A stretch of DNA of 64,000 nt, from positions 1-64,000 of the forward strand of contig WRKR01000012.1 in the NCBI GenBank assembly GCA_009782175.1. The letters are read 5' to 3'. This DNA is from Cystobacterineae bacterium. Lineage in GTDB: Bacteria > Myxococcota > Myxococcia > Myxococcales > Myxococcaceae. Below the pieces are notes generated by a model that made no database searches, was not told where the DNA came from, and saw only the letters and a program-made list of their open reading frames with translations. The position numbers and the translations under genes were made by a program. Of the stretch, positions 4,701-57,594 are shown piece after piece. The first letter of the stretch is position 1, and every line of letters starts with the position of its first letter.

Positions 4701-5317
4701 ACTTGACAGCCATTGCAGAGCACCAGGAGCTTTTGCAGCGTTTTGCTTTCTTGTCCGCGCAAAAGGAGGACTTGGAGCTTTCTCTGGAGCGCCTGAAAAA
4801 AGCCATAGAGAAAATTGACACTCAAAGCCGACAGCAATTTAGAGAGACTTTTGAAGCGGTGAATGCCAAGTTTGCTCAGGTGTTTCCTCGCCTCTTCGGC
4901 GGGGGGCATGCGCAATTGGTTTTGCTGTCCAATGCCTTTGGCCAAGAGGCAGGGGTAGACGTGGTTGCTCAGCCGCCAGGCAAAAAACTGCAAGCCTTAA
5001 ACCTCTTGTCCGGGGGGGAGAAAGTGCTGACGGCCATTAGCCTTATTTTTTCTATTTTTCTCATTAAGCCCACCCCGTTTTGCCTTCTGGATGAGGTGGA
5101 TGCTTCTCTGGATGAGGCCAATGTCCACCGCTATAACGAGCTCATCCGGCAAATGTGCGCCCAGTCCCAGTTTATTTTGGTGACGCACAACAAACGCACC
5201 ATGGAAATTGCCGATGTCCTCTATGGCATAACCATGGAAGAGCCAGGCATTTCCAAGCTGGTTTCTGTGCGCATGAAAGAGTTTGCAGAAACTTTGCCCT
5301 TCGCCATGTCGGCCTAG
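1733..5317 (+). CDS. smc: chromosome segregation ATPase Smc
   Basis: A 1194-residue condensin subunit that organises and segregates the nucleoid. The ATG at 1733 gives the canonical SMC N terminus (MRIKRLDITGFKSF). Walker A GPNGCGKS is at residues 31-38. Two long Gln/Glu/Leu-rich coiled coils flank a hinge at roughly 520-640 (GVVADAL... AIEAVLG). The ABC signature LLSGGEK is near 1090 and Walker B FCLLDEVDAS near 1115. Length is normal for the family. No scpA or scpB is adjacent. The stop codon overlaps by three bases the end of the convergent gene on the other strand. Confidence 0.97.
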   Translation: MRIKRLDITGFKSFMEHSPFVFDKGVTVVVGPNGCGKSNIVDAIRWVMGEQSAKNLRGRGMEDVIFAGAENHPPLSMAEVTMTFEVEEEDLLPPQLMGLPEVSITRRLFRNGDSEYQINKTHCRLLDVTELFLGTGVGTKAYSIIEQGSVGQVVSARPEDRRALLEEAAGVTKYKARRKMAERKMEHTQQNLLRLQDILGELKRNLGSLERAAKKAEKFRRLRQQLRKLESQEWAHRYLELKALHSHALLQKQALEAKAEEELLVVQQAETLLGKERHAAEQKAAHLESEGLELAELTSRIQLCRQSLKHGHTDQEATQARQAKAEIEQQQLQQKRERLQAELQQCAEELQLLSTSNLQEAQTVEEARLNKESNLAARNQLEATLGKTRGHLMRLATTLAQQEAQHAHLRQHKLELQKRLERLLEETQRCQAEEEEGARQLALHGQQHKEQQAALELLLQHRQEQQQLLKCAQEGLDKAQESLTQSREALFNQRSRLSSLQEICSNYEGFDRGVRALVKGAFVDNPGALGVVADALVVKPRSEKAIEAVLGQKLQCILVEEPQVALELSMHLKEHALGRSSFFILPWLQKKRLPKPSCPEIVAMALEELQCIHPAFEPLLEHLLGEVALVETLEQALLCQKQFPHYVFASLTGEFVCPDGLLTGGLLEGPAVGALQKKREVAELQVEVLRLEEAYAAQQLACEALERQLHTHQSALRTLEREQHEGELKLSSLKKDIQQLEAQQKGVGQKSALLGKEREQTDRELSALAQKEEQLRLQLEEQHQQKQTQEAQLQLLLEKQTELSASFDALNNVFMKLRVELATHKEKESSLQYKQQRISNEFQGISHNLNQLSVELKEGEQKLHGLQLSLAQVSEELQLHEQRLLAKTNVFEQEKREQLQHVAKLKEQEKKLVEDRQVLEAFSKSASELLIHARSLGLEIEHLLENAFERCGKEMGEVLYENHLLLPLTVEERQHMKSLKVQVEGFGEVNLTAIAEHQELLQRFAFLSAQKEDLELSLERLKKAIEKIDTQSRQQFRETFEAVNAKFAQVFPRLFGGGHAQLVLLSNAFGQEAGVDVVAQPPGKKLQALNLLSGGEKVLTAISLIFSIFLIKPTPFCLLDEVDASLDEANVHRYNELIRQMCAQSQFILVTHNKRTMEIADVLYGITMEEPGISKLVSVRMKEFAETLPFAMSA

Positions 5318-14088: not shown

Positions 14089-14181
14089 CCAGACGAGCCA
14101 AGCGAGCCTCATAGGGGTTATTTAACTGGCGAGCTTTAGCTCGTCTCACGAAGAGCTCATCTCAAAGTGGAAGCGGTCTGG
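14089..14181 (-). repeat. 93-bp palindromic gene-end repeat (reverse copy)
   Basis: Ends are CCAGAC and GTCTGG. Read on the minus strand it starts CCAGACCGCTTCCACTTTGA and continues with GAGCTCTTCGTGAGACGAGC and TAAAGCTCG, the same order as the middle of the long copy at 55910-56143. Contains the palindrome GAGCTTTAGCTC. Confidence 0.7.

Positions 14182-20820: not shown

Positions 20821-20824
<4 letters not shown>
20126..20824 (+). CDS. cysteine-rich OmpA/Pal-like lipoprotein
   Basis: A 232-residue outer-membrane lipoprotein. The GTG at 20126 lies six bases after AAGGAG and is preferred to the TTG at 20120. The signal ends in lipobox LMLGC. The mature N-terminal part has several Cys-rich units (DDECAEKGEVCVQGTC-like), a pattern I know mainly from Myxococcota. 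The C-terminal OmpA domain (about 125-232) contains the peptidoglycan-binding blocks VEGHADERGTEEYNLQLSNRRA and IGYGQNRP. It probably anchors the outer membrane to the wall. No tol genes are adjacent. The stop TAG lies inside a gene-end repeat. Confidence 0.92.
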
Positions 20825-22859
<2,035 letters not shown>

Positions 22860-36372: not shown

Positions 36373-37249
36373 GAAAGAGACAAGGGTATTGGTGCAGGGC
36401 ATTACGGGAGGGGCCGGAAGCTTCCACGCGCGTGGAATGTTGGAATATGGCACGAAGCTGGTGGCAGGGGTGACGCCCGGAAAGGGGGGCCAGAAGTTTA
36501 ATGGGGTGGTGCCCATTTTTGACACAGTAGAGCAGGCAGTGCGCGAGACGGGCGCCAACGCAACGGCGGTGTTTGTGCCCCCGGCTTTTGCGGCGGACTC
36601 CATTATGGAGGCTGTGGATGCCAACCTCCCCCTCGTGGTTGCCATTACGGAAGGCATTCCCATTTTGGACATGGTGCGCGTAAAGCAGTTTATGCAGGGC
36701 CGCTCCTCGCGGTTGCTTGGCCCCAACTGCCCTGGGCTTATTGCACCGGGCCTTCAGTGCAAAATAGGCATTATGCCCGGCTTCATCCACCGCCCTGGCC
36801 GCGTGGGGGTTGTTTCCCGTTCCGGCACCCTCACCTATGAGGCGGTATACCGCCTGACGGAATTGGGCCTGGGCCAGTCCATGGCCATAGGGCTGGGAGG
36901 CGACCCCATTAACGGCACGGACTTTATAGATGCGCTTGAGGCTTTTGAGGCAGACGAAGAAACCGACGCCATTTTGCTCCTGGGGGAAATTGGTGGAAAC
37001 GCCGAGGAGGAGGCAGCCGAGCACATACGCACGAGGTGCACCAAGCCGGTGGTGGGCTTTATTGCAGGGATGAGCGCCCCCCCCGGAAAGCGTATGGGCC
37101 ATGCAGGCGCCATTATTTCCGGCAGCCAGGGGACGGCGGCGGAGAAGGTGGCGGCGCTGAAGCGGGCCAACATAGAGGTGGTGGACTCACCCATGGAATT
37201 GGGGAGCGTGGTGAAGAAGCTTCTCGACAAGCGTGCCCAAGGAGGCTAG
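36356..37249 (+). CDS. sucD: succinyl-CoA synthetase alpha subunit
   Basis: A 297-residue CoA-binding subunit. The N-terminal Rossmann domain has [20 protein letters not shown]. The phospho-histidine loop GHAGAIISG lies near residue 245. AGG AGG just before ATG 36356, inside the end of sucC, is a good ribosome site, so the 17-base overlap indicates coupling. The stop TAG begins a gene-end repeat (37247 onward). Confidence 0.97.
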
Positions 37250-37270
37250 AGCGCTTTCATTTTGACAAAC
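37246..37270 (+). repeat. gene-end repeat at sucD stop
   Basis: CTAGAGCGCTTTCATTTTGAC; the TAG is the sucD stop codon. Confidence 0.6.
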
Positions 37271-45311: not shown

Positions 45312-45674
45312 ATGCGCATAAAACGAGGAGTGAAAGCGCGTCGTCGCCGAAATAGAATATTAAAGCTTTCCAAGGGCTACCGAGGGCGCAGGAAGAATTG
45401 TTTTCGCCGGGCGAAGGAGGCCGTAGAGCGGGGTTTGGACTATGCCTCAAGAGACAGAGCTCGCCGGAAGAGGGAGTTTCGCTCTTTGTGGATAGTACGC
45501 ATTAACGCTGCTGCCCGCAGTTTAGGAATGAATTACTCTGGCTTGTTGGCCGCTTTGACCAAGGCCAATGTCCAAGTGGACCGAAAAATTCTCGCGGATT
45601 TGGCGGTGGCAGATTTTTCAGGTTTTGCTGCGGTGGTCGATGTTGCGAAGGCGGGAGTGAAGGCAGCAGCCTAG
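45312..45674 (+). CDS. rplT: 50S ribosomal protein L20
   Basis: A 120-residue 23S-binding assembly protein with [33 protein letters not shown], which is diagnostic, and the later LNYSGL-type segment [19 protein letters not shown]. In other bacteria L20 represses this operon through the leader; I did not identify the RNA target here. The stop TAG starts a gene-end repeat, 37 bases from the exbD stop. Confidence 0.96.
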
Positions 45675-45689
45675 ACCGCTTCCACCAAG
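45671..45689 (+). repeat. gene-end repeat at rplT stop
   Basis: CTAGACCGCTTCCACCAAG; the TAG is the rplT stop codon. Confidence 0.65.
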
Positions 45690-53972: not shown

Positions 53973-55606
53973 AACAAAAAGAGTTGTTTGAAAGCTTGCC
54001 GCTCTCCCCCAAACCTGCCGCCACCCCCGTGGCGCCTTTAATACCCAAGCCGCTTGCCCAAAAAACTCAAAAAACGGCCGCTGTGCCACACAACCAGCCC
54101 ACCCTTGACGACCAACGGAAAATATACCCCCAGGCAGCGCTTTGCGAAAACAAGCTTTGCGAAAACAGGCCTGCAGATAGCCCTCCCCACAGTGCTTCCG
54201 ACAGTGCTCCCTACAGTGCTCCCAAACGCCAGCCCCTCAGCGTTAGCGCGTTGACGCAGCACATAAAGCAGGCCATAGATAGCCGACTGGGGAGCCTTTG
54301 GGTGAAAGGAGAGTTGAGCAATTTTAAGGGCCCCAACGCGCGTGGCCACCTCTATTTTTCCCTCAAGGATGAGAAGGCCTCCGTTGAGGTTAAAATGTGG
54401 GCAAGCCAAGCCAAACACTTGCGCTTTAAACTGGAAGAGGGGATGGCCTTGTTGGTGGTGGGGACAGTAGAGGTTTATGCCCCCATGGGCCGCTATAGCC
54501 TCATTGCCTCACATATAGAGCCGGATGGGCTTGGCGCGCAGGCCCTCGCTTTTGAGCAACTTAAAGCGCGCCTGGCCCAGGAGGGCCTGTGGGGAGAGGG
54601 CCGCAAGCGCCCCCGGCGCCCCTTGCCTTTTTTGCCTCGCCGCATTGGGGTAGTAACCAGCATAACAGGGGCAGCGCTGAGGGATTTTTTGAAGGTGCTT
54701 TTGCGCAGGAACCCTCGCCTTTCCGTGCTGGTGCGCGACGCCCGGGTGCAGGGGGCACATGCCGCCGCAGAAATGGTAGAAGCCTTAAAACAACTCTATG
54801 CCACGGACGTGGATGTGGTGGTGCTGGCCCGAGGAGGTGGCTCCGCGGAAGACTTGGCAGCCTTCAACGAGGAGGCCTTGGCGCGTACCCTATTTGAAAG
54901 CCCCGTGCCCAGTATATCCGCCGTCGGACATGAGACAGACATTCCCCTGTGTGACTTGGTGGCCGATATACGCGCCCCCACCCCCAGCGTAGCCGCCGAG
55001 TTACTCTCCCCCATACGTGGCGAGTTGGAGTTGCAGCTTGTGTTGAAGCAGCGCCGTTTGAAAAATGCCCAGCAACGCCTCCTGGCACTCGCACGCTCCG
55101 CACTGGACAAGCGCGCACGCACCCTGGCAGCCCCACGGCGCGCTTTTTCTACTTGGCGCCTTCAGCTTTCTGCCCTGGAAGAGGCCTTGCAGGCAGCGCT
55201 GACAAAACGCCTTAAGGTTGAGCACAAAAACCTGCGAGCGCTTTTAGAGCGCCTCTCCACAAGGCACCCGCGCTTGTTTTTGTTAAAGGGCCGGCAAAGG
55301 CTTGAGGCTTTGCGGCAGAGGCTTATGCAGGGCATAGGCCAAACCCTGGAAAGCCGGCATGCCCACCAGCGCCTTTTGGCAAAGCAACTCCATGCCTTAA
55401 GCCCTTTGGCCGTGTTGGGGCGTGGCTATGCCTTGCTGAAAGAGGAGGCAACAGGGAGGTGGCTGCTTTCACCAGAGGGGCTGGTGGTAGGGCAGGCCTT
55501 GGAAATACACATGGCACAGGGGCGGGTGCTGAGAGCGCGCATAACAGCACCTGCTGCTCCTTTCCCTTATTCCCCTACTCAAAATATGCCCGAGGAGGCG
55601 CTATGA
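53969..55606 (+). CDS. xseA: exodeoxyribonuclease VII large subunit
   Basis: A 545-residue nuclease subunit that degrades ssDNA bidirectionally. About 90 N-terminal residues are low complexity (CENKLCENRPADSPPHSASDSAPYSAP) and precede the canonical OB fold (LSVSALTQHIKQAID... LWVKGELSNF). The catalytic region has GVVTSITGAALRDFLKVLLRRNP and LARGGGSAEDLAAFNEEALAR. The C-terminal coiled coil is normal. Start overlaps the FHA stop by four bases and its own stop overlaps xseB, an unusual coupling of Tad and DNA-repair genes. Confidence 0.95.
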   Translation: MKQKELFESLPLSPKPAATPVAPLIPKPLAQKTQKTAAVPHNQPTLDDQRKIYPQAALCENKLCENRPADSPPHSASDSAPYSAPKRQPLSVSALTQHIKQAIDSRLGSLWVKGELSNFKGPNARGHLYFSLKDEKASVEVKMWASQAKHLRFKLEEGMALLVVGTVEVYAPMGRYSLIASHIEPDGLGAQALAFEQLKARLAQEGLWGEGRKRPRRPLPFLPRRIGVVTSITGAALRDFLKVLLRRNPRLSVLVRDARVQGAHAAAEMVEALKQLYATDVDVVVLARGGGSAEDLAAFNEEALARTLFESPVPSISAVGHETDIPLCDLVADIRAPTPSVAAELLSPIRGELELQLVLKQRRLKNAQQRLLALARSALDKRARTLAAPRRAFSTWRLQLSALEEALQAALTKRLKVEHKNLRALLERLSTRHPRLFLLKGRQRLEALRQRLMQGIGQTLESRHAHQRLLAKQLHALSPLAVLGRGYALLKEEATGRWLLSPEGLVVGQALEIHMAQGRVLRARITAPAAPFPYSPTQNMPEEAL

Positions 55607-55905
55607 AAGAGGATGCTGCAAAAAGCAAGGTTGCCACAAATACCACGGAAAGCAGAGCGGAAAGCAGAGCTGCAGGAGGGGAGCAACCCGCCCCAGCCAC
55701 CTATGCCCAAATTGTTGAGCGCTTGGAAACCCTGGTACAAGCCATGGAGGCGGGAGAGCTGCCATTGGAAGCCTCCCTGGAAACTTTTGCCGAGGGCGTC
55801 CAACTGATAAAACAAGGCGAGAAAATATTGGCCGAGGCAGAGCAGCGTATAGAGCAGCTTTTGGCTTCAGGAGAGGTTGCACCCCTGCATTTGCCAGGAA
55901 CCTAA
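55603..55905 (+). CDS. xseB: exodeoxyribonuclease VII small subunit
   Basis: A 100-residue subunit that caps the XseA coiled coil. ATG 55603, after GAGGAGGCGCT, overlaps the xseA stop. The conserved core is YAQIVERLETLVQAMEAGELPLEASLETFAEGVQLIKQGEKIL; the first ~35 residues are a low-complexity extension. The stop is five bases before the large 55910-56143 repeat. Confidence 0.93.
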   Translation: MKEDAAKSKVATNTTESRAESRAAGGEQPAPATYAQIVERLETLVQAMEAGELPLEASLETFAEGVQLIKQGEKILAEAEQRIEQLLASGEVAPLHLPGT

Positions 55906-55909
55906 ACAA

Positions 55910-56143
55910 CCTAGACCGCTTCCACTTGAGGCGAGCTAAAGCTCGCCTGCACTACGCTCCATGAATGCAGAAAAAGCACGCTTTTTCTGCATTCCCTCCG
56001 CTCCGCTTTGACATGATCTCTTCGTGAGACGAGCTAAAGCTCGTCTACTCCACTCCGTGGATGATCTGAAAAAGCATGCTTTTTCTTCCTTCATGGAGCG
56101 GAGTGCAGGCGAGTGCAACGAGCCTCAATTGAAACCGGTCTGG
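55910..56143 (+). repeat. 234-bp compound palindromic repeat element
   Basis: Left end CCTAGACCGCTTCCACTTGAGGC and right end GCCTCAATTGAAACCGGTCTGG are imperfect inverted repeats. Inside are GGCGAGC-TAAA-GCTCGCC (55921-55937), a 32-base perfect palindromic stem GAATGCAG...CTGCATTC (55963-55994), GACGAGC-TAAA-GCTCGTC and a GAAAAAGCATGCTTTTTC hairpin (about 56068-56085). The block CTTTGACATGATCTCTTCGTGAGACGAGC also occurs in the 14.1-kb copy. No coding frame or transposase. Confidence 0.85.
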
Positions 56144-56178
56144 ATAATCAAATCAGTTCTAAGTAAAAACGGGCTAGC

Positions 56179-57594
56179 ATGCATATGGATATGAGGAAGC
56201 AAAGGGGGCGCAGGGAAAGCCTGAGGCTGTGGAACCAAGAGTTTTGGGGGCTGTTTTATATGGCGACGCCCCTGGCCCTGGCGCAGGCCGGCCTGGCTTT
56301 TATGGGGCTGGTGGATATGCTGGTTGTCTCCCAGGTTTCTGATTTGGATCAGGCCGCCGTAGGCTTGGGCAATGCACTGTTTTTTACGTTTGCGGTGTTT
56401 GGCATGGCGACGATGATGGCGGTGGATCCACTGGTTTCCCAGGCCATTGGGGCCAAGGAGCCTTCTACGGCCCGTACCCATTTTTGGCAAGGCCTGAGCG
56501 TCAGCCTGGTGGGGGGCCTCCTCTTGTGCCTGCCCCTGCTGGCCTGCATTTATTCCCTGGAACGCTTTAACATAGAACCTGAGTTGGCCAAGCTCTCCCG
56601 CAACTATGTGCTGGCTCGCCTCTGGAGTTTGCCGGCCATGCTGCTGTTTTCCAACTGCCGCGCCTATTTCCAAGGCCTGGGCCTGCCCCGGCGGATCCTC
56701 CAGGCAACCCTCGTCAGCAACCTCTTTAATGTTGTTGCCGTCCTCGCCCTCGTACATGGCTTTGGCCCCATTCCCCCCATGGGCGCAACAGGTGCAGGCC
56801 TGGCCACAGGCCTGTGTACATGGATAGGCCTATGGGCCATCCTCCGCCACGGCCTGCAGAAAAAACCCTCACCCTCCCAAAAACAGGTGCCACCTGTGCC
56901 ACCTGTGCAACCTGTGCCACCGCCCCCAAGGCGTCGCCCCTCCTGGGCTTCCGCCAAAGGCATTTTAAAATTGGGGATACCCATTGGTTTGCAAGCGGCG
57001 GCCGAGTGTACGGTTTTTACGCTGGTGGGCATGCTTGCGGGGACGATGAGCCAGACGGCGGCGGCGGCGCACCAGGTGGCGATGACGTGGATGAGTTTTT
57101 CCTTCTGCTTTGCCCTGGGGCTTGGAAATGCGGCCTCGGTGCGCATAGGCTGGGCCATTGGGCGCAATGACTTGGGTGCTTTGCGCCGTACAGGCGCCGT
57201 GGCCATGGCCTCCGCCCTCACCCTCATGGCCCCCTGGGCCGCTTTCTTCTCCCTCTTCCCCCACTGGCCAGCCGGGCTTACGGCACATTCCACTGAAACC
57301 ATGGCCTTGGCCATGCCCCTCTTTGTTATAGGCGGCCTCTTCCAACTGATGGATGGACTCAGCGCCGTCTCCTCAGGCCTCCTGCGCGGAACCGGAGATA
57401 CGCGCTCCGCCTTCTATGTAACCACCTTGGGCTATTATGCCATTGCTACACCCCTGGGCGCCTATTTGGCTTTCTCCAAAAACATGGGCGTGCATGGCCT
57501 TTGGTGGGGCCTGGCCGCAGGCGTCATGCTTATGGGCCCCGCGTTGGCCCTGCGCTTTTTCTGGCGTACCTCAAAACCCCTGGCCCGCATTTAA
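56179..57594 (+). CDS. MATE-family multidrug/Na+ efflux protein
   Basis: A 471-residue membrane transporter with about 12 helices in two halves. The N half contains YMATPLALAQAGLAFMGLVDMLVVS and the C half GIPIGLQAAAECTVFTLVGMLAG plus HQVAMTWMSFSF, typical MATE segments. A Pro-rich cytoplasmic loop (QVPPVPPVQPVPPPPRRR) separates the halves, encoded by repetitive DNA. NorM/DinF-like exporters pump cationic drugs with Na+ or H+; substrate is unknown. Start ATG 56179; in-frame ATGs at 56185 and 56191 are alternatives. Confidence 0.92.
   Translation: MHMDMRKQRGRRESLRLWNQEFWGLFYMATPLALAQAGLAFMGLVDMLVVSQVSDLDQAAVGLGNALFFTFAVFGMATMMAVDPLVSQAIGAKEPSTARTHFWQGLSVSLVGGLLLCLPLLACIYSLERFNIEPELAKLSRNYVLARLWSLPAMLLFSNCRAYFQGLGLPRRILQATLVSNLFNVVAVLALVHGFGPIPPMGATGAGLATGLCTWIGLWAILRHGLQKKPSPSQKQVPPVPPVQPVPPPPRRRPSWASAKGILKLGIPIGLQAAAECTVFTLVGMLAGTMSQTAAAAHQVAMTWMSFSFCFALGLGNAASVRIGWAIGRNDLGALRRTGAVAMASALTLMAPWAAFFSLFPHWPAGLTAHSTETMALAMPLFVIGGLFQLMDGLSAVSSGLLRGTGDTRSAFYVTTLGYYAIATPLGAYLAFSKNMGVHGLWWGLAAGVMLMGPALALRFFWRTSKPLARI

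Follow-up and report, generated by a model that had tools for sequence, protein, structure and literature searches.

A modular MITE family inserted at CTAG and often rebuilding stop codons in a Cystobacterineae bacterium

In a stretch of 64,000 nucleotides from a Cystobacterineae bacterium, analysed as a whole and referred to as the window, a palindromic block lies between two genes and its left end recurs at the ends of other genes, which raises the questions of what kind of element this is, where it ends, and why its relatives are found at gene ends. The analysis involved the genome of origin (G000; 2.70 Mb, 65 contigs) and the other two genomes of the genus (G001 and G002), which consists of uncultured myxobacteria with small genomes. 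With a probability of roughly 0.87, the element is a copy of a genus-wide MITE family that inserts at the TA within CTAG, often rebuilds stop codons and would be moved in trans by a DDE transposase. The common ends of the copies, their number and the absence of the element from orthologous sites of a sister species are direct observations.

A preliminary description placed the block at 55910-56143. Its palindromic nature held, but its right border did not. Indeed, complete copies start with CTAGACCGCTTCCACTTTGACATGATCTCTTCG and close with a doubled right end (TGAAACCGGTCTGG, about 20 nt, TAAAAGCGGTCTAG), so that position 56143 closes the inner right repeat and the true end lies 34 bp further out, at 56177. 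The window element hence measures 267 bp (55911-56177), with CTAG at each end and a doubled right end. Its parts and neighbouring genes are the following:

55603-55905, + strand: xseB, exonuclease VII small subunit, upstream (Pfam PF02609)
55911-56177, + strand: complete element, left end to outer right end, with borders common to 27 complete copies
55911-55927, + strand: left terminal repeat, CTAGACCGCTTCCACTT
55912-55913: TA, left copy of the putative target duplication, within CTAG 55911-55914 (terminal base tally; empty sites)
55928-56005, + strand: left-arm double-hairpin block, namely a short hairpin, CTACGCTCC, a long hairpin (55963-55994) and CTCCGCTCC (comparison of filled and empty arms; hairpins)
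56006-56024, + strand: inner left arm, CTTTGACATGATCTCTTCG, with CTT on either side of the block
56025-56126, + strand: second and third blocks, fused at a palindromic core (56068-56085), with the remainder of the right-arm block at 56091-56126
about 56127-56143, + strand: inner right terminal repeat (R1), the right end of the preliminary description
56144-56163, + strand: conserved 20-nt spacer of the doubled right end
56164-56177, + strand: outer right terminal repeat (R2), TAAAAACGGGCTAG
56175-56176: TA, right copy of the putative target duplication, within CTAG 56174-56177 (terminal base tally; empty sites)
56179-57594, + strand: MATE-family transporter gene, downstream, starting 1 nt past the element (Pfam PF01554)

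As xseB already ends in a TAA at 55905, 5 nt ahead of the element, no stop is supplied by the window copy. A scan for intrinsic signals between 55800 and 56260 revealed neither a terminator-like site nor a promoter in the element, and no Rfam family matched the window at gathering scores. A blastn search of plasmids with 3.6 kb around the element returned a single 42-base match, to two Cupriavidus metallidurans records and outside the element.

The secondary structure ascribed to the block was borne out throughout. The inverted ends pair at 85% complementarity (55913-55932 with 56122-56141), four local hairpins are present, including the perfect 15-pair stem (55963-55977/55980-55994), and an outer stem of 46 nt is 91% complementary (55942-55987/56068-56113). 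Folded as RNA, the block reached -120.8 kcal/mol versus a mean of -65.4 for shuffled sequences (z -11.2), a value equalled by none of 200 shuffles; folded as DNA, its z value was -10 versus shuffles. In addition, the hairpin arms covary: in an alignment of 21 of the 28 block copies (seven were dropped because they were truncated at one end, nearly duplicate or hard to align), 97.8% of the cells were paired and 12 of 26 pairs were altered on both sides (41 cells), which was not reached in any of 500 shuffles. This covariation may reflect either structural selection or hairpin-templated correction.

The block belongs to a large family. The 2.70 Mb of G000 contain 81 exact occurrences of the terminal motif TAGACCGSTTNNA and none of its reversed control pattern, which excludes chance, and BLAST of the block against this genome gave 105 matching pieces of modular arrangement on many contigs, among them a second long copy on contig C9 with an 84% match. 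For the border analysis, 80 stretches around copies were retrieved. The 30 complete copies range from 107 to 407 bp, the commonest length being 162-163 bp (13 of 27 tallied). They are short, non-coding and numerous, and have terminal inverted repeats in common, as is the case for bacterial MITEs. No copies were found in viral contigs. When the window sequence was compared with 40 genomes, its own included, matches were confined to G000 and G002. With at most one mismatch, the terminal pattern occurs 78 times in G001 and 104 times in G002, versus 46 and 45 for the control; among the matches listed, at least 13 and at least 33, respectively, are exact terminal motifs. Shorter family members in the window are:

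14089-14181, - strand: truncated left-arm family copy, the 93-bp copy of the preliminary description
20821-20850, + strand: solo left end, its CTAG being the stop of an OmpA-domain gene
37246-37265, + strand: variant solo left end, its CTAG being the stop of a CoA-ligase alpha (sucD-like) gene
45671-45685, + strand: solo left end, its CTAG being the stop of the ribosomal protein L20 gene

Motif matches thus confirmed that the left end of the block is the gene-end repeat, and the middle of the block does match the copy at 14089-14181. Similarly, the idea of a non-autonomous mobile element agrees with the common borders, empty sites, CTAG/TA target and spread through the genus. The proposal that the block is the full-length parent of the short copies failed, as the commonest form measures 162-163 bp, others reach 340-407 bp and the window copy has itself been rearranged. 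Solo left ends were also considered as a separate signal; they are here taken for copies that have decayed or lost their interior, and at locus L042 a left end abuts an outer right end. The rho gene in the window ends at a weaker CTAGTGCGCTTCCA.

The copies differ by double-hairpin blocks, each composed of a short hairpin, CTMCGCTCC, a long hairpin and CTCCGCTCC. An empty arm reads CA[C/A]TTTGACATGA and a filled arm CA[C/A]TT[GAGGC...CTCCGCTCCG]CTT[T/G]G[A/G]CATGA, with a 3-bp CTT/ATT repeat, indicating that blocks are gained or lost as units, whereby copy sizes differ. Because a left-arm block and a fused pair meeting at the common core 56068-56085 can be distinguished, the window copy, as read from its sequence, is a chimera produced by rearrangement, both of its arms holding a double-hairpin block. 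Such a block was also encountered, devoid of MITE ends, inside another repeat (GGTTACTTTTTTTGTCCAGACAAAAAAAGTGAC), namely in L112 (113-272, - strand), in L114 (493-650) and, cut by a contig end, in L113; this repeat is uninterrupted in L116, L119 and L121. The block sits in this unrelated repeat as if it had moved independently.

The terminal bases of the 27 complete copies point to the insertion site. At the left tetranucleotide, base 1 is C in 25 copies and T in two, and base 4 is G in all 27 (C/T-T-A-G); at the right one, base 1 is C in 26 copies and T in one, base 4 is G in 20, A in four and T in three, and the A is missing in three (C-T-A-N). That the outermost bases are the most variable fits a duplication of TA and an element whose first base is G and whose last is C. 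A TA duplication is thus indicated rather than one of the 4-bp CTAG, the latter as in IS5 itself, and insertion at TA within CTAG, or more loosely YTAN, is strongly indicated. The empty sites agree with this. Six of the 16 G000 loci compared with G002 were interpretable, together with one reciprocal site. The G002 orthologues of L045, L073 and L097 have a single unbroken CTAG, the stop of the gene, where G000 carries the element. For L070, the CTAG stop of G002 is one codon off the element position, and the empty site reads TTAG for L052 and CTAC for L053. The reciprocal case is window gene 168-1577, whose G002 orthologue carries at its stop (locus L032) an element that ends at R1; the window gene ends in GAA ATG CCT TAA, versus GAA ATA CCC TAG plus element in G002. 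The other ten loci (L036, L044, L046, L051, L060, L061, L081, L082, L083 and L087) gave no interpretable empty site, the stop of L082 being kept as TAA at the same codon in G002. The window copy has no empty-site partner, as the MATE gene is unmatched in G002 and its match in G001 begins at residue 206 and ends at a contig end.

Stop codons are strongly represented among the insertion sites. In 16 of the 30 complete copies, the left end forms the exact TAG stop of a frame measuring 100 codons or more, versus one to four at ten shifted positions; the right end forms such a stop in five. Twelve copies do so at the left end only, one at the right end only, four at both and 13 at neither (left versus right, binomial p 0.003). 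The four double cases are convergent gene pairs, for which one common CTAG could have served both genes; a natural empty double-stop site of this kind, two convergent long frames with one unbroken CTAG as common stop, is present in the window at 5314-5317. An independent set, from 800 kb of G002, comprised 22 ends or pairs, of which 10 were stops of long frames. Gene ends were taken from open frames, and seven left-end genes were checked against G002; homology reaches or nears the stop for L045, L052, L070, L073, L082 and L097. CTAG itself is about seven-fold rarer in the 64-kb window than expected from base composition (36 versus 247), and a rough hand tally of the 27 window CTAGs without a tie to the family counted about seven that likewise end long frames.

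These data suggest how the family may spread. The MITE would insert at the TA of a CTAG and duplicate TA, the element proper being GACCG...CGGTC. As it starts with G, insertion into a CTAG stop would rebuild TAG and leave the gene intact, and insertion into a CTAG common to two convergent genes would provide both with their stops. A CTAG-specific transposase, combined with the loss of gene-breaking insertions, would then leave copies at gene ends. Hence, their presence there reflects how often the target CTAG is a stop codon, and not descent from the window copy. CTAG targeting and loss of damaging insertions may thus suffice for the location, with no need for gene ends to be actively targeted, yet they leave the 12:1 left-end orientation unaccounted for: the left end is favoured at stops although CTAG is symmetric, the element being asymmetric. 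A bolder combination, in which insertion follows the direction of translation or transcription and the double-hairpin block is itself mobile without inverted ends, nesting in both MITE arms and in the unrelated repeat and so making the family a two-level parasite, is unlikely but worth entertaining. If true, the directionality would require gene direction to be sensed, either at a target step or by a selective filter, and the element would be a mobile 3' end.

As to the enzyme involved, a DDE transposase acting in trans would mobilise the element, with the IS5 family (DUF4096 plus DDE_Tnp_1) as its most likely source, although this assignment is tentative and judged to fall a little short of an even chance. 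No transposase gene with MITE-type ends (GACCGCTT) was found in the genomes searched, which are incomplete, and none was recognised by eye in the inspected parts of the six smallest contigs; a matching autonomous IS in the host does not accompany every MITE described. The DDE_Tnp_1 and DUF4096 profiles gave one hit each, to the same IS in G000. Two transposase loci are relevant here:

G000, contig C7, 56279-57110 (L152, 1096-1927): IS5-family IS, DUF4096 and DDE_Tnp_1 in two overlapping frames
G001, contig C219 (L203, 1335-1680): IS630-type (DDE_3) relic, below the family cut-off, directly after the CTAG stop of a gene that is presumably tyrS-like

The IS5-family IS has perfect 20-base inverted ends (CTAGAGCGTGTCGTCAATAA) with a GAGCG start, is inserted at the CTAG that ends the open frame before it and adjoins a mini MITE-family copy; the end of a second IS5-like copy is followed by TAA, not TAG. 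The ends of the MITE and the IS5-like ends (GAGCGTGTCG) are alike over about five bases only (GASCG) and diverge thereafter; the longer likeness expected of an IS5-derived MITE was not observed. As target and first bases resemble those of the MITE and the likeness stops at about five bases, an IS5-type helper is favoured and not claimed. At the left end of contig C2 of G000 (L194, 1-1400), two inverted IS5-like ends surround about 1.2 kb bordered by inverted repeats (ATATTCGCCGCC...). An IS481-type helper was discarded, since rve is absent from all three genomes of the genus.

Alternatively, the MITE may be moved by an IS630/Tc1-mariner-type transposase since lost or unassembled, a helper for which the odds are clearly unfavourable without being negligible. 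The TA duplication is the rule for IS630/Tc1-mariner elements (PMC2170065) and is the one favoured by the end tally, a work on preferential transposition into the TA of CTAG figures in the reference list of the same paper, and the DDE_3 relic lies at a CTAG stop in G001; however, a profile search found DDE_3 absent from G000 and G002, and the ends of the relic (GGGGCTGTCCC) are unlike those of the MITE. Palindromic, intergenic and high-copy sequences also recall REP or BIME elements moved by a RAYT (Y1 tyrosine) transposase, a protein for which the preliminary description proposed to search, but Y1_Tnp is absent from G000, G001 and G002, with five of 14 control genomes positive, and the long inverted ends bordered by CTAG at left and right, together with empty sites showing a duplication, are not what IS200/IS605-type insertion predicts, which makes this origin highly improbable.

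Selection for a host-useful 3'-UTR element, such as a terminator or mRNA stabiliser with incidental mobility, would account for the strong fold with compensatory change and for the 12:1 orientation of the left end toward the upstream stop. It is nevertheless distinctly improbable: the region 55800-56260 holds no terminator-like site, orthologues in the sister species do without the element, the covariation is also obtainable by hairpin-templated correction, and, with about seven of 27 other window CTAGs being stops too, target choice and purifying selection may suffice. Integron attC sites likewise sit just past stop codons, so that an attC or other site-specific recombination array might be envisaged. 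Yet, the copies occur on many contigs without a cassette array, ordinary orthologous genes lie beside the empty sites, and the MITE ends (CTAGACCG) differ from attC-type core sites, leaving this origin with a negligible probability.

The preferred reading, that of a trans-mobilised MITE, has parallels in known systems. The BOX elements of Streptococcus pneumoniae are described as modular MITEs of 67-637 bp with ends resembling ISSpn2, and the present family shares with them the short interspersed form, inverted ends, target duplication, interchangeable modules, folded RNA and enrichment between convergent genes (PMC3049150). In contrast with BOX, tandem boxB arrays are lacking, and double hairpins in the arms, CTAG/TA insertion and rebuilt stops occur instead, the comparison being one of architecture with the published description. 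Similarly, RUP of S. pneumoniae, associated with IS630-Spn1, is a MITE with a TA-containing target that is thought to be moved in trans, but its ends match a resident IS, whereas no resident IS matches here (PMC2229807, PMC3049150). With regard to the target, TnRErm46/ISRe46 of Rhodococcus equi (IS481 family) is reported to insert at CTAG, the flanking TAG supplying the stop of some target genes, which remain intact; that element is autonomous with 6-bp NCTAGN direct repeats, unlike the non-coding element with variable outer bases described here (PMC6794481). The IS5 of Escherichia coli duplicates Y-T-A-R, most often CTAG, and is an autonomous IS with a 4-bp duplication, unlike the present MITE (PMC5493358). 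Dispersed hairpin units are known as mitochondrial DNA double hairpin elements (PMC2800124), whereas those reported here lie inside a bacterial MITE and another bacterial repeat. A bacterial MITE that rebuilds stop codons was not found in titles and abstract openings of the open-access literature searched, and the terms 'stop codon' and 'CTAG' are absent from the main text of a 2024 MITE review (PMC10969869). The copies represent a modular MITE family that is new, inserts at CTAG/TA and in many cases restores the stop.

With 30 mapped insertions, some of which have orthologous empty sites, the family lends itself to direct tests of directionality and of hairpin-block mobility. The family also illustrates that gene-end repeats can be mistaken for terminators. 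Genome sizes amount to 2.1-2.7 Mb in this genus, versus 4.4-13.2 Mb in 21 other members of the taxonomic family searched, and a selfish element of this kind can spread through small genomes without breaking genes.
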